Below, piece after piece: positions 27,932 to 57,508 of a stretch of DNA of 64,000 bases (positions are counted from its first letter, which is position 1; every line of letters begins with the position of its first letter). This DNA comes from Phytopythium helicoides. Lineage: Eukaryota; Oomycota; Peronosporomycetes; Pythiales; Pythiaceae. A model generated the notes under the pieces. The model saw only the letters and a program-made list of their open reading frames with translations. It did no database searches and was not told where the DNA came from. The position numbers and the translations under genes were made by a program. The stretch covers positions 62,001 through 126,000 of the forward strand of contig JANFNE010000038.1 in assembly GCA_024867545.1 (NCBI GenBank), given 5' to 3'.

Positions 27932-30341
27932 ATGGCGGACGGGGGCGGCCTCGCCTGGTGGGAGGCGCAGCTCGCGCTCTCCGCGCGGCACCAGCGCGGC
28001 CCACCGCCCGCCTCACGCGCCGCTGACTCGTTGGCGTTCCGTGCCGAGTTCTTTCCGGCGCTGCTGCGCGCCTGTGAGGCCCACGCGCTGCCTGCGGAGC
28101 TCTCGCTCGACGAGCTGCGCGTGCTCGTGCGCTTCTGCCTCGGCGACTCTGCGCGCGATCTGGACGCGGTGACCAAGCAGGACGTGCGTGGCTGGGCTTG
28201 CGGCTTGTGGTGGACAGCTGAGGTGATGGAGATGGCTTTTATGGCAGTTCACGTGGTTCCTGGCGCGGTTTGGGCCGCTGGAGCAGAGCATTGAGAAGGT
28301 GCGGAGGAGCCTTTGGTTCGCATGGGTGAGCCACGTGCTGATTGAATTGGTGGAGCAGCTGGTGGAGAACTTCTGTGTCAGTAGAGAAATGGCGCCGTGG
28401 TTCCACGGGACGATGGGGCGGAGGGAGGCCGAGCAGGTGCTGACGGCAAGGGGAAGAGATGACGGCGCGTTCCTCGTCCGCTTCTCCGAGTCCCAGCCGG
28501 CTAAATTCACGCTGTCGTATCTGAAAGTGCATGCGGATAGTGGACGAAGGGAGGTGAAGAACTGCCTCGTAGAAAATATGGGGCGGGAAGGTGGCTACGC
28601 ACTGTTGGAAGGGAGTCGAAGTCGCCACCAACGCACATATGCGTCCTTGCAGTCGTTCGTCAAACACAATGCGTCGAGGCTCAAATATGGGGTAAGTGGC
28701 GAATGATGCGAGTCGTGATCTACCTTGTTTTAACATATTGCTTTCCCCTTCTAGGTTCCTTCCGAACTATCACGGCAGTGCAACAACGAACTCGCCGATC
28801 TACGCGCAGTATGCGACCACCAGATGGATGCGTATACAGCTTTCAGCTCGGAGACGGTCGTCGATTCACAGGACACACCGGGTAAGGGTGGGGACTATAC
28901 TGCCTCTATGCTGTTCACGAGATCGCCAGTGCTGCAGGCTCAGTCCGAGTACCAGGCATACGGCGGGCTCACACTGCCCGAGAGTGGCAACAACAGCGCA
29001 TACTCTAGCTTCTCACTCGACGCTCTCTCGGGGGTTCGCGACCAGAGCCACACTTCTGACAACAGTAGCTCATTCGTGTCCAGTAGCCAAAGCTTGCGGC
29101 AGTTTGAAGTCGCGGAACCCGACTACGGGTACAACTTCTTAGCGTTCTCCGGTCCACAGAGTAGCAACGAAAGCGGTAAAAGTGCCAAGAGCGACGACGT
29201 ATACGCCAATTTTGACACATTCACAGCAGCTGCAGGGATGTTCGCAAATGAATCCCGCGAATTGGCTGCGCGGAGACAGCAAATGGTATCGCTTTCAAGA
29301 TCACCTACTCGCCCGGGCTCTACTCAGTGGCAATGTGATCAGGTAGAGAGCCATCACGAAGTGTACGGGTCATTTGCGAGTGCAGAAGTGGCTTCGATTC
29401 CGGCGTCTTCGACACCTGCGCTTCCGGTCACAGTAAGACCTCTAGAATCGAGTTCTGCTCGTCACGATTCTTCAAGCGACTATGGCAGCTTTGTGTCATT
29501 CCCAGATAGTGGTGTTTCCAAGCAGACCTCGACTACTGAAGCGAATCTCTCTGGGAATTCAGCACTCGGGCCGCCACCGCCACCTCCTCAATCGATTCTT
29601 CTGCGTCCGTCACCTAATGCAGACGAGGTGTACGGAAATTTCTCGTCCATGACAATTGATGATGGCCACGTGGAGTCCAGTCCCAGTTCTACATTTGATG
29701 CTTCGGCTTCAATGCCTGATCTTCGTCAAATGGCGGGTGAAGACGCCTTGGGGCCACCGCCGCTCCCTCTGTCGCATTCGTTCTCAACCACAGCGACCGG
29801 GTTGGACCTGGCAGGTGACCTTGAATCAAAGCCGGACTCTGCATCAACAGAACTTAGAAGCACAATGTTTGCCCATGCATCTGCCCTCGAGGAGCTGAAT
29901 GCAGGTATGGCTTTCTATAAGCAGCAAATGTTGGACGAAGCTATTCTTCGTTTCGTCGTTGCTCGGGAGACTGCACGGGAGACGCAGGATAAAGTCGTAG
30001 AGGCGCGAGCCCTCGGAAACTTGGGAACTGTTTACTTGGATCGCAAGAACCCTCGGCAAGCAGTCGAATGCTATCAGAAATGCCTTGAGATAACTCGTTC
30101 CATCGGCGACACGAAGCGAGAGCGAACAATTCTGAACAACATCGTGCTGGCTTTTGTCGCGTGTGAAGAATTTTCAGAAGCGCTTGCATACTCCCAAGTC
30201 CAACTCGAGATGACCGCAAATGCAATCAACCGCCGCAAGATTCTGTCACGCATGAGCTTGTTGAAAGAGCGGATGGCCCGTGCAACAGCTGCTGCTGAGA
30301 AGCAGAATGCTGCTCACGCTGCCGTTGCATTTGGCGCGTAA
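27932..30341 (+). CDS. SH2 domain - YxxF repeat - TPR protein
   Basis: 760 residues, exons 27932-28183, 28248-28691 and 28755-30341. Residues 1-130 are a helical, EF-hand/linker-like module (FTWFLARFGPLEQSIEKVRRSLW) like the segment before SH2 in STAT and Cbl-type proteins. Residues 135-237 are a full SH2 domain: WFHGTMGRREAEQVL, GAFLVRFSES with the phosphotyrosine-binding Arg in FLVR, FTLSYLK, VKNCLVENM, YASLQSFVKHN, VPSEL. Residues about 250-600 are disordered and carry six Y-x-x-F motifs. Residues about 605-720 hold TPR/GPSM-like helices (ALGNLGTVYLDRKNPRQAVECYQKCLEI, then VACEEFSEALAYSQ). The combination implies a phosphotyrosine adaptor. The first intron uses GTGCGT and interrupts the linker just before FTWF. 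Confidence 0.9.
28824..29645 (+). repeat. Six iterated Y-x-x-F tyrosine motifs
   Basis: Within the SH2-TPR protein six motifs of the form Y-[small]-[A/S/N]-F recur: YTAF (28833), YSSF (29001), YANF (29202), YGSF (29364), YGSF (29480) and YGNF (29631). Most are preceded by an acidic or Asp/Glu-Val context (DDVYANF, HEVYGSF, DEVYGNF). The intervening sequence is unrelated low complexity, so the motifs are conserved peaks in a disordered stretch, consistent with tyrosine phosphorylation or docking sites. Phosphorylation itself is inferred. Confidence 0.75.
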
Positions 30342-44640: not shown

Positions 44641-45094
44641 GAGATCTGCATCCGAGATGAGATAACGCCATAGACAATATCTTTTTTCGATCGTCACCAC
44701 CTTACCGCATTCGGATGAGGTGGCCGGAGGCGGTACTCTCTGGATGCCATGTGTTCAATGCGTAGCCATCCATAAGAAAGGTCTCTGCACTCATAGAGCA
44801 CACGCAGTTGCACTGCTCGTTCAAATCGGGCGATCACCTCTCCAGAGCGACGCGAGCAATTTCCGTTGCACGGCAAGTGGTGATGCCCTTGCTCGTCAAT
44901 TTTCCCTTTCACTCTCTATGGCAAACTCCTTGCGTCCCGGAGCCGATAGGAGTCAAGTTTCGTGCCGTTGTCATCCGACCGCGTTCCAGAAAGCACTGAG
45001 GATCGATCCGTCACGCGCCGTCGACAGCAAAGCTCTCCGTGACTCGCCACTTCCCAACTCTCTCTCTCTCTCTCCATCGACCCGATCGATCGGC
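44641..45094. promoter_or_regulatory. Upstream region of MLO-like copy A
   Basis: 454 bp. Positions 44952-45094 are already part of the duplicated unit (identical to the 5' flank of copy B), including a CT-dinucleotide run. The preceding part (44641-44951) is unique to copy A and holds the decarboxylase gene's 3' UTR. Confidence 0.5.
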
Positions 45095-47281
45095 ATGAGA
45101 CGCCGACTACTGCTATGGCCGTCGCTTTCGTTACTCCAATCCCACGTTGAAGCGCACAAGCTGCTGCTACGATCTCGACCGTCCGACGCAATGACACAAG
45201 TCAACCGAGAACTGGCAGAGGGAGCGAACCCCGGATCGACATGCAGCGCTGCCGGCTCCTTCCTCGGCGTAGGCAATACGGCATGTCTGCATGACAACCT
45301 GAGTGCCGCCATCTTCCTGCTGGCAGTCATCGTGCTCGTCTCGATCGCCTTCGAGCGATTCATCCACTACACCAGGCGAGCCATCAAGTGTCCGCAGCTG
45401 CGACGCATCGTCGGCCGGATCTTCCAGGAAATCATGATCCTCGGCTTCCTCTCCATGGTCATCTTCACGCTCAACACGACCGGCGCCTTCGAGGCGCTCA
45501 GCACCGCGTCCTTCGCGTTCGCAGACGAGCTGTCGGGGTCGGAGCGCCTTCACTTCTACGAGTTCTTCCACTACGTCGTCTTCCTCACCATGATCTACTT
45601 CATCGCCATCGTGCTGCTGCTTCTTTTCATCGGTACCGTGGCTCCGAAGCTCGTATGGGAGACCAAAGTGCACCGCGGCGGTCTGCGCCGCTACCAGCTC
45701 GAGTCGGACGACGAAGATCGACTGGACTACTACCACCACGACAGCGACGACGACAACGACAATGATAACATCAACAACAACAATCGCAGCATCAACGGGT
45801 CGTCAAGGCGCAAAATGATGCTCGACTCGAACGGAAACACGGCCAACACACCTCAGGACTCGACGCTATCCGACGATGAGGACGGAAGCCGATACTATGT
45901 GCGTCCGAGCCACCAGTTCTCATGGTGCCGCCAAGACGCAAGGAACGATATGATGCAGAGCTTTGCGGCCATGCGAGAGCGATCCAAGTCGGGTATGGAT
46001 CTGGCGCTTGGTGCTCGAGCGTATTCGCTACTACTGCATCGTTACCAGCGAGAGAGCGGCTGGTGTTTCCGACTGAACCTGCGCAAGCAGTGGCAACTGT
46101 ACAAGAGCTTCGAGCTGTTGGCTTACAATATCTGCCAGAACCGATCGGGCTACATCTACAAGAACGCGAAGGAGATGGAGCGGCTATTTGACGTTCGTCC
46201 GGCCGCGGCGACTCACTCACCGCTGGAGATGCTCGATGACCAATGCATCACCGGCGGAGAGGACGATATTTGTAGTCCTCCACCGGGTCCTCCGTTCACC
46301 TTCGAGGAATACCATGTCTTGTGCATGCGAAACCTGCTCTTCCACATCACGGAGCTGCATCCCAGTGCGTTCGTGATCCTCGTGGTCATCAGTATTCTGC
46401 CGTCGGCATTCCCAGCATATGCTCACTGGATCTTTATTGGGGTTGGCGCTCTCCTACTCCTCATCAACGTCGTCATCCTGTTCAAGGTGTTCCGAATCCT
46501 TCGCGGCATCGTCGATGACCGGCTACGAGTGTTCACGATGCGAGAGATCCAAGCGAGAATGGACAGAAAGGCGGCGAGACAAGGTGGTGGTGCGTCTCAG
46601 TCGCAACTACACCCGCGGAAACGAACTTTCAAGGCGGCTGCGCTGGCGGTACGCGCGATTTTGCGGATGCAGATGTCGGCGCTGTGTCACCGTGCGCTCC
46701 ACCACCACGACCATCTGTTCTGGTTGTCAAGTCCCAAGCTTCTTCTGCGGTTGTTTCAGTTCGCGACCATAGGACAGGCATTTTACCTGGTGTGGTTGTC
46801 GCTGGTGGAAACTCAAGCCGTGCTGCACGAGTCTTCGCCTGCTGCCAAGTGGTACTACATGACCATCATGCTAGCTCTACCCGCGCTCGCGCTTTTTGTG
46901 GTCACCCCGATGACGATGCCGAGTCTCGTGTTAGTGATGAGTCTCACGGGCATCTTTGCCGAGCTCAACGCGGAGACGGAGGAAGGTGGCGTACTAAAGA
47001 AGTCGAGCAAGCGGACGATGCAGGAAGAGTCCAAGATTCGTATGCGAATGATGCGCCGATCCTATCTGCGTAGCCACTACTCTGACGACGACGATCGATA
47101 CATTTCTCGTTTGAATATCGGGCACAACAGCAGCAGCAACAACAACAACAACAACTTTTCACTCGAGGACGGTGTGAACTCGAGTGAACGATTGGTTCGC
47201 GGCAGCCGTGCTACGAATCCTCCATGCGTCGAGGGCGTCACTGTGGAGGCTCAATCTAACGTCAATGATGTTGGAAACGTG
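44952..47281 (+). repeat. Tandem duplication unit, copy A
   Basis: 2,330 bp repeated at constant offset 2,775 bp as 47727-50056. Two mismatches noticed: 45030 A against 47805 C and 45109 A against 47884 G; no indel, since the offset is constant. The unit covers the 5' flank, CT run and the first 729 codons of the MLO-like gene, ending inside the C-terminal disordered region. Confidence 0.9.
45058..45074 (+). repeat. CT-dinucleotide run in 5' flank (also at 47833)
   Basis: Short (CT)n tract about 20 bp upstream of the ATG, present in both copies. Pyrimidine runs near start codons may act in initiation or promoter spacing; this is not established here. Confidence 0.5.
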
Positions 47282-47395
47282 AGACATGGCGTTGGCTTGG
47301 GTTCACAAAGTAGTCAGCAAGAAGATCTTGCAAAGTGGTCGGAAGCGATGTATATTCGCTGGACACGAAGGCGTTCAATGCGAAGCACTTCTTGA
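45095..47395 (+). CDS. MLO-like multi-TM protein, copy A, altered C-terminus
   Basis: 766 residues, intronless, seven to eight predicted transmembrane helices: NLSAAIFLLAVIVLVSIAFE, EIMILGFLSMVIFTL, FFHYVVFLTMIYFIAIVLLLL, AFVILVVISILPSAF, WIFIGVGALLLLINVVIL, PKLLLRLFQFATIGQAFYL and ALPALALFVVTP. The arrangement, the early E-IMILGFLS helix, the HFYEFFHYVVF helix with basic loop, and the PKLLLRL...FQFATIGQAFYL stretch resemble the MLO superfamily, a call based on pattern only. A cytosolic loop (residues about 170-230) is Asp/Asn-rich. After residue about 729 the copy leaves the shared sequence and ends with a novel 38-residue tail (RHGVGLGSQSS...). Start ATG 45095 opens a hydrophobic signal-like helix MRRRLLLWPSLSLLQ; upstream initiation in frame is not conserved in copy B. 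Confidence 0.75.
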   Translation: MRRRLLLWPSLSLLQSHVEAHKLLLRSRPSDAMTQVNRELAEGANPGSTCSAAGSFLGVGNTACLHDNLSAAIFLLAVIVLVSIAFERFIHYTRRAIKCPQLRRIVGRIFQEIMILGFLSMVIFTLNTTGAFEALSTASFAFADELSGSERLHFYEFFHYVVFLTMIYFIAIVLLLLFIGTVAPKLVWETKVHRGGLRRYQLESDDEDRLDYYHHDSDDDNDNDNINNNNRSINGSSRRKMMLDSNGNTANTPQDSTLSDDEDGSRYYVRPSHQFSWCRQDARNDMMQSFAAMRERSKSGMDLALGARAYSLLLHRYQRESGWCFRLNLRKQWQLYKSFELLAYNICQNRSGYIYKNAKEMERLFDVRPAAATHSPLEMLDDQCITGGEDDICSPPPGPPFTFEEYHVLCMRNLLFHITELHPSAFVILVVISILPSAFPAYAHWIFIGVGALLLLINVVILFKVFRILRGIVDDRLRVFTMREIQARMDRKAARQGGGASQSQLHPRKRTFKAAALAVRAILRMQMSALCHRALHHHDHLFWLSSPKLLLRLFQFATIGQAFYLVWLSLVETQAVLHESSPAAKWYYMTIMLALPALALFVVTPMTMPSLVLVMSLTGIFAELNAETEEGGVLKKSSKRTMQEESKIRMRMMRRSYLRSHYSDDDDRYISRLNIGHNSSSNNNNNNFSLEDGVNSSERLVRGSRATNPPCVEGVTVEAQSNVNDVGNVRHGVGLGSQSSQQEDLAKWSEAMYIRWTRRRSMRSTS

Positions 47396-47869
47396 GAAGG
47401 GCCTAGCTACCTAGTGGCATACCAGCGCTGCACTCGTCACTTGTTTCATCGCAAGCAGGAGCTCTTGCAGTGCAGGTTCAAATCTGAAGATTCACGCCCC
47501 GCCCACTTCTATACCGAGCTTGAAGCTCGATGGGCAAGTCGCATGTTCGTTTCGGCTGGTACGCATGCGTTCATGTCGACAATACAGTAAAAAACACGAG
47601 GCGACGCATGCATGTGGCTTCATACAGCGTGCCTGGTCGTGGTGCGCACAGCTTTTTTCCGCTTCTTTCGCTTTCTATGGGCAGCTCCACGTGTTCTGGA
47701 GTAGATAATTTTTAGTCAAGAACTGCGTCAAGTTTCGTGCCGTTGTCATCCGACCGCGTTCCAGAAAGCACTGAGGATCGATCCGTCACGCGCCGTCGAC
47801 AGCACAGCTCTCCGTGACTCGCCACTTCCCAACTCTCTCTCTCTCTCTCCATCGACCCGATCGATCGGC
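47396..47869. other. Spacer between duplicated MLO-like genes
   Basis: 474 bp. 47396-47726 is unique spacer and 47727-47869 is the duplicated 5' flank of copy B. No ORF with support; a C-rich stretch near 47495 and an AT-rich segment near 47700 are visible. Confidence 0.5.
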
Positions 47870-50056
47870 ATGAGACGCCGACTGCTGCTATGGCCGTCGC
47901 TTTCGTTACTCCAATCCCACGTTGAAGCGCACAAGCTGCTGCTACGATCTCGACCGTCCGACGCAATGACACAAGTCAACCGAGAACTGGCAGAGGGAGC
48001 GAACCCCGGATCGACATGCAGCGCTGCCGGCTCCTTCCTCGGCGTAGGCAATACGGCATGTCTGCATGACAACCTGAGTGCCGCCATCTTCCTGCTGGCA
48101 GTCATCGTGCTCGTCTCGATCGCCTTCGAGCGATTCATCCACTACACCAGGCGAGCCATCAAGTGTCCGCAGCTGCGACGCATCGTCGGCCGGATCTTCC
48201 AGGAAATCATGATCCTCGGCTTCCTCTCCATGGTCATCTTCACGCTCAACACGACCGGCGCCTTCGAGGCGCTCAGCACCGCGTCCTTCGCGTTCGCAGA
48301 CGAGCTGTCGGGGTCGGAGCGCCTTCACTTCTACGAGTTCTTCCACTACGTCGTCTTCCTCACCATGATCTACTTCATCGCCATCGTGCTGCTGCTTCTT
48401 TTCATCGGTACCGTGGCTCCGAAGCTCGTATGGGAGACCAAAGTGCACCGCGGCGGTCTGCGCCGCTACCAGCTCGAGTCGGACGACGAAGATCGACTGG
48501 ACTACTACCACCACGACAGCGACGACGACAACGACAATGATAACATCAACAACAACAATCGCAGCATCAACGGGTCGTCAAGGCGCAAAATGATGCTCGA
48601 CTCGAACGGAAACACGGCCAACACACCTCAGGACTCGACGCTATCCGACGATGAGGACGGAAGCCGATACTATGTGCGTCCGAGCCACCAGTTCTCATGG
48701 TGCCGCCAAGACGCAAGGAACGATATGATGCAGAGCTTTGCGGCCATGCGAGAGCGATCCAAGTCGGGTATGGATCTGGCGCTTGGTGCTCGAGCGTATT
48801 CGCTACTACTGCATCGTTACCAGCGAGAGAGCGGCTGGTGTTTCCGACTGAACCTGCGCAAGCAGTGGCAACTGTACAAGAGCTTCGAGCTGTTGGCTTA
48901 CAATATCTGCCAGAACCGATCGGGCTACATCTACAAGAACGCGAAGGAGATGGAGCGGCTATTTGACGTTCGTCCGGCCGCGGCGACTCACTCACCGCTG
49001 GAGATGCTCGATGACCAATGCATCACCGGCGGAGAGGACGATATTTGTAGTCCTCCACCGGGTCCTCCGTTCACCTTCGAGGAATACCATGTCTTGTGCA
49101 TGCGAAACCTGCTCTTCCACATCACGGAGCTGCATCCCAGTGCGTTCGTGATCCTCGTGGTCATCAGTATTCTGCCGTCGGCATTCCCAGCATATGCTCA
49201 CTGGATCTTTATTGGGGTTGGCGCTCTCCTACTCCTCATCAACGTCGTCATCCTGTTCAAGGTGTTCCGAATCCTTCGCGGCATCGTCGATGACCGGCTA
49301 CGAGTGTTCACGATGCGAGAGATCCAAGCGAGAATGGACAGAAAGGCGGCGAGACAAGGTGGTGGTGCGTCTCAGTCGCAACTACACCCGCGGAAACGAA
49401 CTTTCAAGGCGGCTGCGCTGGCGGTACGCGCGATTTTGCGGATGCAGATGTCGGCGCTGTGTCACCGTGCGCTCCACCACCACGACCATCTGTTCTGGTT
49501 GTCAAGTCCCAAGCTTCTTCTGCGGTTGTTTCAGTTCGCGACCATAGGACAGGCATTTTACCTGGTGTGGTTGTCGCTGGTGGAAACTCAAGCCGTGCTG
49601 CACGAGTCTTCGCCTGCTGCCAAGTGGTACTACATGACCATCATGCTAGCTCTACCCGCGCTCGCGCTTTTTGTGGTCACCCCGATGACGATGCCGAGTC
49701 TCGTGTTAGTGATGAGTCTCACGGGCATCTTTGCCGAGCTCAACGCGGAGACGGAGGAAGGTGGCGTACTAAAGAAGTCGAGCAAGCGGACGATGCAGGA
49801 AGAGTCCAAGATTCGTATGCGAATGATGCGCCGATCCTATCTGCGTAGCCACTACTCTGACGACGACGATCGATACATTTCTCGTTTGAATATCGGGCAC
49901 AACAGCAGCAGCAACAACAACAACAACAACTTTTCACTCGAGGACGGTGTGAACTCGAGTGAACGATTGGTTCGCGGCAGCCGTGCTACGAATCCTCCAT
50001 GCGTCGAGGGCGTCACTGTGGAGGCTCAATCTAACGTCAATGATGTTGGAAACGTG
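47727..50056 (+). repeat. Tandem duplication unit, copy B
   Basis: Counterpart of 44952-47281 at a constant 2,775-bp offset. The junction with non-repeated DNA is at 47726/47727 on the left and 50056/50057 on the right. Confidence 0.9.
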
Positions 50057-50791
50057 GAAGCTGGACCGATGTCGCCCACAAATAGCGTTTTCCTGCGCAT
50101 ATACGACTCGCCCACAGCTGCAGTTCAGCATAGCAAAATGGCTCTCGCGGATCGCATACTGTCTCCGAGCTCGCGACGTAGTGACGGTGATCGGATGTCA
50201 TTACTCGGACGAGCCAGGAGAGGAGCTCAGGCAAGTAACTCTCGACGCTACTCACGTGAGTCTGGGCGGTCTCGCAGCTCCAGCTACAACAGTGACACAA
50301 TCACCAGCAACCATAGCTACCGAAGTCTGGGATACAGCAGCTCTGTTGGGCGAAATGGTACCACGTCAAGTTGCTATAACTCGCGTGGTGGATCTTGGGG
50401 AAGAGCAACACCCAAACATAATTCCTTCGGAAGCTTTGGACGCGATGACAGCGGGTATTCTGGAGCGAGTAGACACTTCGACCTTGCAGCTTTCCAAGCA
50501 GCAGGAGGGAACGCGCGAACTGCACTGAATAGCGTTTACCACAGCCCACGCCGATCGCGGAATCGACCGGAGTGGTCCCAAGCTCCCATGGAGAGCATCA
50601 CAACGCCTGGGAATCAGGAACCGCAGCAGGAAAGTCATTCCTCGGTACCAAGTGCAAGTAGCAGCAACAAAGACGACGCCATGGATCAGTCAAACCGTAA
50701 GATCCCCGGCGAGGACTCAGATCCTTTGAGCCCAGCTGCCTCGACCTTCAAGAGCTATTGCTCCAAGTACGGTGGCTACCCTGAGCAGTGA
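47870..50791 (+). CDS. MLO-like multi-TM protein, copy B, full-length
   Basis: 973 residues, intronless. Residues 1-729 have the same translation as copy A (the single coding difference I found, 45109/47884, is synonymous or nearly so). The unique C-terminus (about 245 residues) is Ser/Arg-rich: QASNSRRYSRESGRSRSSSYNSD, SHRSLGYSS-like runs, YNSRGGSWGRATPKHNSFGSF and a final CSKYGGYPEQ. It resembles a phosphorylated cytosolic tail and follows the cytosolic C-terminus of MLO proteins, where calmodulin binds in plants; I see no clear amphipathic calmodulin site. This copy is likely the ancestral form because its tail flows from conserved sequence; copy A's tail begins at the break. Confidence 0.78.
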   Translation: MRRRLLLWPSLSLLQSHVEAHKLLLRSRPSDAMTQVNRELAEGANPGSTCSAAGSFLGVGNTACLHDNLSAAIFLLAVIVLVSIAFERFIHYTRRAIKCPQLRRIVGRIFQEIMILGFLSMVIFTLNTTGAFEALSTASFAFADELSGSERLHFYEFFHYVVFLTMIYFIAIVLLLLFIGTVAPKLVWETKVHRGGLRRYQLESDDEDRLDYYHHDSDDDNDNDNINNNNRSINGSSRRKMMLDSNGNTANTPQDSTLSDDEDGSRYYVRPSHQFSWCRQDARNDMMQSFAAMRERSKSGMDLALGARAYSLLLHRYQRESGWCFRLNLRKQWQLYKSFELLAYNICQNRSGYIYKNAKEMERLFDVRPAAATHSPLEMLDDQCITGGEDDICSPPPGPPFTFEEYHVLCMRNLLFHITELHPSAFVILVVISILPSAFPAYAHWIFIGVGALLLLINVVILFKVFRILRGIVDDRLRVFTMREIQARMDRKAARQGGGASQSQLHPRKRTFKAAALAVRAILRMQMSALCHRALHHHDHLFWLSSPKLLLRLFQFATIGQAFYLVWLSLVETQAVLHESSPAAKWYYMTIMLALPALALFVVTPMTMPSLVLVMSLTGIFAELNAETEEGGVLKKSSKRTMQEESKIRMRMMRRSYLRSHYSDDDDRYISRLNIGHNSSSNNNNNNFSLEDGVNSSERLVRGSRATNPPCVEGVTVEAQSNVNDVGNVEAGPMSPTNSVFLRIYDSPTAAVQHSKMALADRILSPSSRRSDGDRMSLLGRARRGAQASNSRRYSRESGRSRSSSYNSDTITSNHSYRSLGYSSSVGRNGTTSSCYNSRGGSWGRATPKHNSFGSFGRDDSGYSGASRHFDLAAFQAAGGNARTALNSVYHSPRRSRNRPEWSQAPMESITTPGNQEPQQESHSSVPSASSSNKDDAMDQSNRKIPGEDSDPLSPAASTFKSYCSKYGGYPEQ

Positions 50792-54800: not shown

Positions 54801-57508
54801 ATGGACTCGCCCGGGCCCCCGCGGGGCGAGGGCACGCCCACGACCAGCTTCATCCTGCTCGAGGGCCGCGAGAGCCTGCCTGATGTGCTCTCGCCCTCGG
54901 TGGACGCGGCGCCGCGCCGCGGAGGCTCGCGGCTGTTGAACGCGCTGTCTCGGCGGACGCCCCCGCTGGCGGCGGCTGGGAGTGGCGAGGTGGTGACGAT
55001 GGACGGCTTCCAGCAGCGGCCGAGGGAGGACTCGATCAGCGACCTGTTCCCGATGAACGTGAGCGTGTTCACCAACCCGGAGAACATCATGCCGTCGCGC
55101 CAGGACTCGATCCTGATCGACACGGACTCGCAGCAGCAGGAGCAGCAGATGATGCAGAACTCCAACACGCTCATGCCCGCCGGATCGCAGTTCCTCAACG
55201 GCAGCCAGAGCACGGCTACCATCGGCAGCGCGTCGATCAACAGCAGCACACTCTTCGCGTACCCGTCGACAGGCTCCGTTCTCCACGCAGTGTATGAGCA
55301 GACGGGCAAGGGCACGACCACCAACACGAACGGATCGCGAGAACCCTCGTTCGAGGGCGACCACGTGTTCCAGGATATTGCAAATAGTATCGCGACCTCG
55401 CGCGCGTCTGCCAGCGGAACAGCGTACGACAAGGATGAGGTTGGAATCGCCGGAAGGAAGCGGTGCTGGTGCGGAACGACGCATGCGTCTCCCCGACAGT
55501 GGCTGGCATCATTGTGGGAGCGACTTACTAATGACTGGGATACCATCTTCCAAATGGGCACCCTCGCTGTGAGCATTTGCAGCGTGCCGATTGCCGTGAC
55601 TATTGCATGGGCGTTGGATTCCTCACAAGACCTCCGATTCGGCACCCGATGTCGGCTTTCAGCCACAAGCCATGTCGACAGCCCCTCGGTTCCGTACCTC
55701 GCTGCAGTGCTGATCCCCATCATGAATTATGCGGTTCTGTTTGTTGTATCGCTCTGGGTTGGCATTCTCTGCAGCCGCAGTCGCAAGCGTGTGTTGAAAA
55801 GCGGCCCTGCTGCAATCAGCTCCAACCTGAGTACGTTCGAAGTGTTTAGATGTACTGTTGCTGACGTGGTTACTCACCGGAACATCTATATCTCGCAGCG
55901 TCGGCTTTCATGCTACCTTGCTACGAGCCTATCTGGTACTGCATTTCGTGTCTGTCAGCAATCGGCCTCATCCTTTATCTGTCAAGCTACACAGTCTCCA
56001 CAGACACGGACCCTGATGCTCCTAGAGTGTCAGACCTTGGTGGAAGCGCAGGGTACCCGTGCAATGTAGCCACGCTGCCGTTCGTGTGGGTCTTGCAGCT
56101 CCTCCCAATGCTCATGATCCAGCGCAGCGTATCCCAGGAAGCTGTTGTTCGCGCCATTGTCTACTCTGGCGGCGTGTGCATCGTCATGGTGATTTGTTAC
56201 GTCTGCCTTTTCAACCAGGGCAGACATATCCTTGACTCGATCTCTACATCGGTTCACCTCGTGCTACTCGCCTTCTACATCTGGGCCAAGTTTGGTTTCC
56301 ACGCACGCGCCACCTTCGACTTCTTTTTCGTGATGGCCGTTGTTTCAGCTATCGCGAACGTGACAGTGCACACCATGGGAATAGTATCAGCGGATCCCAA
56401 TACGACAATCCCGATTACTCAGTGCGTCGTGGGTTCGCTGGACGCGATGATTATGGTCTCGATCCTGCTATCGCTGCGTGCAGATACAAGATATTGGCTC
56501 GCGATTGATGATGGTAATGGCGGCACGGGAGTGACATCGAACGCCATGAAGCGATACGTGCGATTACTTTCTGAGCGTGGATTGATCACAAACTTTTCCA
56601 CCCGAACGTCAGTGTACGATGTCCACCGCATGATTGAAGAGCACCGCAAGAATGTTGTCGACTTTTCGGCTCTGCAACTCGACTGTGTAATTGCTCAAGG
56701 TGCGACATCTATCGTCATGCGCGGCTCTCTTCGTCAGAGCGGCACGGCGATTGCCCTCAAGATCTACACTTCCGTCCAGGTTACATACGAAGAGGTCCAG
56801 CGCTTTTCTCGCGAGACTGCGCTTAACGTCCAGCTGTCGCATCCGAATGTCGTTCGGTTTTACGGCTTGTGTGTTGTGCCGCCTTCCATTTCTCTCATCT
56901 TCGAGTTCTGCGAGTATGGTGGACTCGATGTGGCGTTGCGAGCAACCGTGGAAGGCTCGACATCATGGAGTTTGTCAACCAAGCTAAAAGCCTGGCTGGA
57001 TGCGTGCAAGGCAGTCGCATACTTGCACAGTTTTTCTCCACCGCTACTCCACCGAGACATTAAAACCGACAACTTCCTCATCGGCCAGGACTATCTGCTC
57101 AAGCTTGCCGACTTTGGCGAGGCAAATTTGCTGCGTCCTCGCAGTGATGGCACAATGACAATCGCAGGAACAGTCGACTACATGGCACCGGAAATGATTA
57201 TTGGGGGCAAGACGGCTCGCTACGGAACAGCGGTGGATGTGTACAGCCTGATGATCACGCTGTGGCAGATTCTCGTACCCGACCGTAGCCCTTGGGGAGC
57301 CAAGACGCATCTCGAAGTTTATCAGTGCGTCACGAATGGCGAGCGACCGCCGCTATTGCCTACGATTCCGCGCGGGTGTGCTGACATCCTAGTCGCAGGG
57401 TGGGCACCAAACCCAGCGGACCGCGTGTCAGTCGACGAGGTTATTCCTAAGGTGCATCGGTTGTGGTTATACTCGCTACACCAGAAGAAGCTGACGCGGA
57501 CGAAGTGA
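54801..57508 (+). CDS. Multi-TM receptor-like protein fused to TKL kinase
   Basis: 879 residues, exons 54801-55830 and 55899-57508 (68-bp intron). Residues about 1-250 are disordered Ser/Gln/Thr-rich, with RDSIS-type motifs. About eight hydrophobic helices follow, for example FQMGTLAVSICSVPIAVTIAW, VLIPIMNYAVLFVVSLWVGIL, YCISCLSAIGLILYLSSYTV, ATLPFVWVLQLLPMLM, VCIVMVICYVCLF, TSVHLVLLAFYIWAKFGF, FFFVMAVVSAIANVTVHTMGIV. The kinase (about 605-870) has AIALKIY, FEFCEYGGLDVAL, HRDIKTDNFLIG, LADFGEA, a T-loop AGTVDYMAPEMI and WGAKTHLEVYQCVTNGERPPLLP, typical of TKL. The gene resembles the G-protein-coupled-receptor/TKL-kinase fusions described in oomycetes. Signal perception at the membrane passing to the cytosolic kinase is inferred. 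N-terminal start is chosen as first ATG in frame after the GC-rich region; convergent with the FYVE gene. Confidence 0.82.

Follow-up and report, generated by a model that had tools for sequence, protein, structure and literature searches.

The window, i.e. the whole stretch of 64,000 nucleotides of Phytopythium helicoides DNA that was analysed, contains on its forward strand (27932-30341) a gene with four exons and three short introns, which encodes a protein of 740 amino acids (Table 1). The model follows an open frame across GT-AG introns and the alignment of orthologues; the introns are predictions from the splice consensus and the orthologues, with no RNA behind them. A two-intron model (760 amino acids) was replaced, as the orthologues revealed a third intron: intron 2 was recognised because the orthologues lack the 20 amino acids that it would encode. 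The Pfam scan, the shuffles, the orthologue search, a comparison with solved structures and the realignment were run on the 760-residue version, in which the excess 20 residues lie upstream of the SH2 domain. The SH2, motif and TPR results are the same for both versions, except that the numbering is shifted by 20.

Table 1. Predicted gene, protein features (window positions) and TK-type kinase loci (contig positions)
Feature	Position	Strand	Observation
Whole gene	exons 27932-28183, 28248-28298, 28359-28691, 28755-30341	+	Open frame, orthologue alignment
Intron 1, 64 nt	28184..28247	+	GTGCGT...TGGCAG; full-length orthologues continue across the junction
Intron 2, 60 nt, in frame	28299..28358	+	GTGCGG...GAGCAG; its 20 aa missing from orthologues
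Intron 3, 63 nt	28692..28754	+	GTAAGT...TTCTAG; in-frame stops
N-terminal helical domain, residues 1-114	27932..28397	+	AlphaFold2 model of orthologue P0003; alignment A4; weak IBP39 match
SH2, residues 115-212, FLVRF at 139-143	28398..28691	+	Pfam PF00017, E 2.5e-13
YxxF 1, Tyr239 YTAF	28833..28844	+	Y 1.00, F 1.00 of 34 orthologue rows
YxxF 2, Tyr295 YSSF	29001..29012	+	Y 0.97 of 39, F 1.00 of 38
Degenerate seventh site, Tyr336 YGYNFLA (DYGYNFLAF)	29124..29144	+	Exact YxxF in most orthologues
YxxF 3, Tyr362 YANF	29202..29213	+	Y 0.97, F 0.95 of 37
YxxF 4, Tyr416 YGSF	29364..29375	+	Y 0.97 of 37, F 1.00 of 38
YxxF 5, Tyr455 YGSF	29481..29492	+	Y 1.00, F 0.92 of 38
YxxF 6, Tyr505 YGNF	29631..29642	+	Y 1.00, F 0.92 of 38
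C-terminal TPR domain, residues 589-721	29883..30281	+	TPR profiles; orthologue model
L004 / L005, TK-type kinase	G000 C43:7783-8640 / C29:591068-591925		HRDIAARN
L006, second TK type	C29:252012-252788		HRDIAARN

From its N-terminus the protein consists of a helical domain, an SH2 domain, a disordered region of about 340 residues with an array of YxxF motifs, and a TPR domain resembling that of LGN. The complete SH2 domain with the FLVR arginine, proposed in the sequence-only reading, was recovered by Pfam well over threshold (50.4 bits, cut-off 21) and scored 54.8 bits in a six-frame search of the whole genome. The phosphate-pocket residues are conserved: Arg alphaA2, Arg betaB5 and Ser betaB7 are invariant in all 24 rows of alignment A1, whose members were picked from SH2-bearing matches. 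In alignment A3 (25 rows) the alphaA2 Arg is present in at least 90% of rows and the betaB5 Arg and betaB7 Ser are invariant. Position betaD4 holds Asn, not His. From its sequence, the gene product can probably read phosphorylated tyrosines. The best sequence matches among solved structures are the SH2 domains of SHP2 (PTPN11), Syk, Lck, PLC-gamma and Grb2; unlike these proteins, the product carries a single SH2 and no phosphatase, kinase or lipase domain.

The TPR-like helices that had been noticed at the C-terminus are borne out as well, with TPR families scoring over the Pfam cut-off and the helical repeat fold confidently modelled in an orthologue. The alignment with the 321-residue chain of LGN/Pins (GPSM2) covers 143 residues. 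SH2 and TPR profile matches occur together in all 24 members of A1. No SH3 match was found in the Pfam scan of the window protein up to E 1.

In the AlphaFold2 model of orthologue P0003 the N-terminal domain folds into two helix-strand-helix units resembling an EF-hand pair, and an RFGP motif is conserved within it, ahead of the SH2 (alignment A4). The Cbl TKB module combines a 4-helix bundle, an EF-hand and an SH2 domain, and in both Cbl TKB and STAT modules a helical domain with EF-hand-like units directly precedes the SH2. By its modelled fold, the N-terminal domain with the SH2 may resemble the Cbl TKB and STAT linker-SH2 modules. Foldseek lists Cbl-b (8qnh) at rank 43 over 156 columns, and there was no sequence-profile match of the domain to Cbl or STAT. 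The N-terminal sequence profile returned only Trichomonas IBP39 (E 0.5) and two chance-level rows. In a domain scan of the A1 members, 8 of the 24 matched this initiator-binding protein family at E 0.001 or better, and one matched Rapsyn_N.

The homologue listing comprises 52 proteins, the first 42 of which are orthologues and the remaining ten generic TPR proteins. All named orthologues are from oomycetes (Phytophthora, Nothophytophthora, Peronospora, Pythium, Globisporangium, Lagenidium, Saprolegnia, Achlya, Aphanomyces), the others stem from environmental sets, and Phytophthora infestans PITG_02464 and its oomycete orthologues are the same gene. In databases these are named hypothetical, SH2-domain-containing or TPR proteins. 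In the sequence-only reading the combination of SH2, YxxF motifs and TPR was called new; its SH2-TPR part is already annotated among the precomputed domains for 30 of the 42 orthologues. The other 12 lack SH2 there. Two of these (P0002 and P0011) start within the array and are apparently incomplete gene models; among the other ten, genuine SH2 loss is possible. A profile search (26 rows) found no SH2-TPR protein outside oomycetes. This negative is weak because Pythium, Globisporangium and Saprolegniales members of the query alignment were also not returned. In the literature searched, which lacked most subscription journals, no publication on this protein and no paper with the PITG_02464 locus tag was found.

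The disordered stretch of 362 residues contains six exact YxxF motifs, where 0.48 are expected, and none of 20,000 composition shuffles reached six. The six motifs of the sequence-only reading are therefore real, but they were described there as regularly recurring and are not regular, as the distance between them varies from 39 to 67 residues. In the same stretch YxF, YxxxF, FxxY, YxxY and YxxL are at or near chance. Each of the 42 orthologue proteins has 4-10 YxxF within the part scanned, which starts 90 residues past the first F[LVI][VILA]R[FYLW] match (in many rows the pre-SH2 RFGP motif) or comprises the whole protein if there is none. The motif region is predicted to be disordered (pLDDT <50) in the orthologue AlphaFold2 model. 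The model, in which phosphotyrosine cannot be represented, gives no sign of a motif docked on the SH2. A genome pattern search with one stringent form of the motif gave no matches and carries little weight.

The window protein was realigned with all 42 orthologues and conservation was counted over 39 rows; three Saprolegniales proteins were left out of the count because their array is rearranged. Of the two outcomes named in the sequence-only reading as refuting it, an SH2 match below threshold and motifs that are not conserved in orthologues, neither occurred. The motifs stand out by their conservation: mean identity is 0.99 for the motif Tyr and 0.96 for the Phe, against 0.32 for the whole disordered region, and none of 20,000 random sets of 12 positions in this realignment was equally conserved. 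A chance origin of the repeats is ruled out by the shuffles together with the orthologue conservation. Across 266 sites the most frequent residues read S-D-x-Y-[GA]-[SAN]-F-[AS]-S, and the three Saprolegniales proteins have Y-G-[HQR]-F at 26 sites. Two further conserved islands lie in the disordered region outside the motifs: a Leu-Phe pair (window 28911-28916, conserved 0.92/0.97) and a proline pair inside a proline run (29571-29576, 0.89/0.95).

Such an array could in principle work without phosphorylation. The Tyr/Phe pairs may be generic aromatic stickers for condensates which act independently of the SH2, as the disordered, G/S/N-rich context with aromatic repeats would allow. This is very improbable, for the scaffold holds strictly to the +3 distance, with YxF and YxxxF no commoner than chance, and orthologous sites remain in register, which stickers do not require. 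Alternatively, YxxF may be a non-phosphorylated linear motif for a third protein (a mu-adaptin YxxPhi or an Atg8-type pocket), common to the scaffold and to the kinase described below. YxxF fits the loose YxxPhi consensus, the Aphanomyces orthologue has YGxL and YGxI beside YGHF, and Globisporangium has YGSL at one site. Sorting signals of the YxxPhi type tolerate L/I/M/V at +3 and Atg8 motifs want L/I/V, whereas at the six aligned sites of the scaffold 92-100% of rows have Phe at +3; in addition, the same protein contains an SH2, and its partner belongs to the TK-type kinases. A third-protein pocket is therefore a quite doubtful explanation, though less so than stickers. Readings without phosphorylation are harder to reconcile with an invariably placed Phe at +3 and with the association with an SH2 and a TK, and neither of the two is favoured over a phosphotyrosine scaffold.

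A candidate writer for such a scaffold was found among the kinases of the same genome. The search for tyrosine-type kinase domains gave at least 145 matches, and among the best 20 of 145, which were inspected, HRDIAARN with GPVKW or GPVKY is present in L004, L005 and L006. The other inspected kinases have the Ser/Thr form HRD[LI]KSxN, none being printed for L008. The available text of the P. infestans kinome study (PMC3019232) defines the TK group by HRD[LI]AARN (subdomain VIb) and a Pro in subdomain VIII; the catalytic segment of L004 agrees with this definition, having HRDIAARN and FGPVKWMAPE. The same text lists two TKs in P. infestans (PITG_02400 and PITG_02529), with which the finding in the window's genome agrees, and no more than four plausible SH2 proteins. 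Over the catalytic segment compared, L004 and L005 do not differ; they lie on two contigs, as a haplotig or a duplication. Among the matches listed, the first named non-oomycete relatives of L004 are MuSK kinases. One strong match to a classical PTP was found in the genome. A weak Y_phosphatase match is located about 3.2 kb from L004, and likewise from L005.

The L004 kinase contains YDGF, YASF and YDNF, 5 and 14 residues apart, inside 23 residues N-terminal of the kinase domain. The family alignment has 40 rows, L004 plus 39 orthologues; a conserved downstream motif served as an anchor in 33 of them, and the up to 190 residues ahead of it were scanned. Each of these 33 (L004 plus 32 orthologues) carries two or more YxxF N-terminal of the kinase domain. 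The pair spacing is 17-20 in 31 anchored rows and 12 in Pythium insidiosum P0078. The seven unanchored rows are less uniform: a pair is found in P0063, P0088, P0089 and P0090, whereas P0091 has a single motif and P0085 and P0087 lack it. At the outer two sites Tyr and Phe do not vary in 33 of 33 non-Saprolegniales orthologues with residues there (35 aligned), and the region around them has a mean identity of 26%.

In the pooled kinase windows 67 YxxF were observed, against 9.2 +/- 3.0 expected from shuffling; pooled counts ignore relatedness, and the strength of the result is its recurrence across genera. YxxP is also enriched (50 observed, 13.7 expected), because the L004 family has a third conserved tyrosine: residue 135 of L004, between the outer YxxF motifs, is 94% conserved and is followed by Pro at +3 in many orthologues. 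Tyr and Phe with one, four or six residues between them occur 27, 22 and 29 times (raw counts), which may follow from the relatedness of the sequences.

As a comparison, 16 non-TK kinase ORFs of the same genome were taken and two with too short an N-terminal region were discarded. Of the 14 usable Ser/Thr-type controls, 11 have no YxxF before the kinase domain and three have one; the number of independent controls is below 14 because L007 and L009 overlap and several others are near-copies. These controls give no support to YxxF as a feature of all kinases. L006 has one YxxF (YDPF). Among 18 relatives nearer to L006 than to L004, ten have none and five have one, while P0095, P0102 and P0107 have 3, 3 and 5, with P0102 and P0107 clearly above shuffles. 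The L006 type is thus a mixed, not a clean, control, and it was rejected as the partner since it has one motif and most of its relatives have none or one. From these counts, the conserved pair is a property of the L004 family among the kinases examined; the second TK type may use a looser version. The kinase and scaffold motifs share only Tyr and Phe: the +1 and +2 residues are mostly D-x in the kinase, against G/A and then S/A/N in the scaffold.

With the YxxF pair on a TK-type kinase, "some phosphotyrosine somewhere" becomes a specific candidate writer. The gene is probably, though by no means certainly, an oomycete phosphotyrosine scaffold, in which writer, reader and multisite substrate would share one YxxF code. 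The earlier reading of a scaffold with an SH2, its own tyrosines and a TPR region agrees with the architecture and with the motif conservation; it did not foresee a TK-type kinase with a YxxF pair. In the proposed mechanism, the L004-family kinase would autophosphorylate its conserved YxxF pair (mostly YDxF) in the variable region before the kinase domain, and the scaffold SH2 would dock on the phosphorylated pair. The docked kinase would then phosphorylate the Y-[GA]-x-F array of the scaffold. The phosphorylated array would recruit further SH2 copies, chiefly of the same protein, leading to a multivalent assembly, while the TPR domain would hold a client.

The substrate domain of p130Cas/BCAR1 is a long run of short Tyr motifs which a docked tyrosine kinase phosphorylates and SH2 domains read. 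The scaffold is like p130Cas/BCAR1 in that one chain contains a run of near-identical Tyr motifs in disordered sequence, conserved as such here. CAS proteins have an SH3 domain and YxxP motifs read by Crk in trans, and possess neither SH2 nor TPR. In contrast, the scaffold has its own SH2, YxxF motifs and TPR but no SH3, and is not a CAS member. Its proposed mode would also be similar to that of LAT, to whose family it does not belong.

The genome of the window has three conventional SH2 loci and one Spt6-type SH2_2 match. The two other conventional loci, L002 and L003, would be compatible with an array that the kinase phosphorylates but that an SH2 protein of their type reads, the scaffold's own SH2 binding something else, for example only the kinase. 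Many animal scaffolds are indeed read in trans. However, nothing was found that ties L002 or L003 to YxxF, and each of the 24 A1 members, a set chosen for SH2, has SH2 and array on a single chain. Reading by another protein is thus unlikely, although it is the least unlikely of the three alternatives. L002 (G000 C28, L002:1426-2649, minus strand) encodes another SH2 protein, and the translation of the frame directly before it looks like a P-loop ATPase. The profile comparison of L002 with A1 (probability 91.9, E 7.1e-7) spans the SH2 and the preceding stretch, and the pre-SH2 domain may therefore be common to both. Beside the third SH2 locus, L003 (G000 C67), an adjacent frame has sub-threshold NPHP3_N and TANC1-like matches.

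Peronospora offers a natural comparison. Eight sites were defined on P. fragariae and followed through Phytophthora and Peronospora. The named Phytophthora rows number twelve, from eleven species with P. infestans represented twice; they retain 90 of 96 site slots, and the six failures are five gaps or lost stretches and one Tyr substitution. Substitutions have destroyed three of the eight sites in Peronospora farinosa, and the same three in P. effusa (F to C, F to L, Y to C with F to L); in P0038 four of eight are broken. The identity of the disordered region to that of P. fragariae is 0.50, 0.49 and 0.46 for P. farinosa, P. effusa and P0038, respectively; P. boehmeriae (0.50) and Nothophytophthora (0.44, one site lost) are comparably diverged. 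No downy mildew names appear among the best 120 of 734 TK matches, many of which carry no species name, and the kinome study (PMC3019232) found no TK orthologue in Hyaloperonospora arabidopsidis. YxxF erosion in Peronospora may thus be tied to a missing kinase. The case is suggestive only, because it consists of one lineage and a negative search. As counter-points, five of the eight sites are intact in Peronospora, Globisporangium has a Phe-to-Leu change at one site (YGSL) with the kinase present (P0084), and P0023 has three sites lost or broken.

Extended further, the phosphotyrosine scaffold reading leads to a more speculative picture: a closed oomycete tyrosine circuit apart from the animal one, with one kinase, one reader-scaffold and one YxxF code, in which phosphorylation by the docked kinase would produce a self-polymerised signalling condensate and the code would decay on kinase loss, as in Peronospora. 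Self-polymerisation would be switched on because the scaffold carries both an SH2 and a whole row of its ligands. This picture is possible but we hold it only tentatively.

The available text of PMC3019232 states that the use of tyrosine phosphorylation as signalling in oomycetes "remains to be elucidated", and no oomycete phosphotyrosine-site study was found in the literature searched. As far as the searches reach, neither the conserved YxxF array nor the occurrence of its motif on a TK-type kinase appears to have been described. The suggested circuit is of a kind studied mainly in animals, and phosphotyrosine signalling has barely been studied in oomycetes. Since a TK-type kinase and an SH2 scaffold have a conserved motif in common, there are now candidates for the writer, the reader and the sites, and the question can be reduced to peptide and kinase assays. 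If true, the circuit would be a compact stramenopile one, with a natural scaffold that holds both a reader and its ligands.

The contigs of scaffold and kinase are of equal length in seven species (P. infestans, P. sojae, P. capsici, P. oleae, P. pseudosyringae, Pythium insidiosum and Pythium oligandrum). Five of the seven have serial gene numbers on both genes, and in these the numbers of the scaffold and the kinase are 57 to 183 apart. The contigs differ in other species (e.g. P. boehmeriae, Lagenidium, P. ramorum), where some of them are fragments or belong to other assemblies; in the genome of the window the scaffold is on C33 and the kinase on C29/C43. The two genes probably descend from a shared ancestral neighbourhood, to which little weight is given.

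Elsewhere in the window, 44744-50791 contains two large ORFs (883 and 973 amino acids) with long identical stretches. A 300-nt repeat, 99% identical at a spacing of 2775 nt, is found there and represents a recent tandem duplication or an assembly artefact. The second ORF of the pair (973 amino acids) has a marginal Mlo match (25.8 bits, cut-off 24). The ORF at 55910-57508 encodes a kinase, with Pkinase and PK_Tyr_Ser-Thr over cut-off and hydrophobic stretches before the kinase domain, and overlaps another ORF at 54801-56069.
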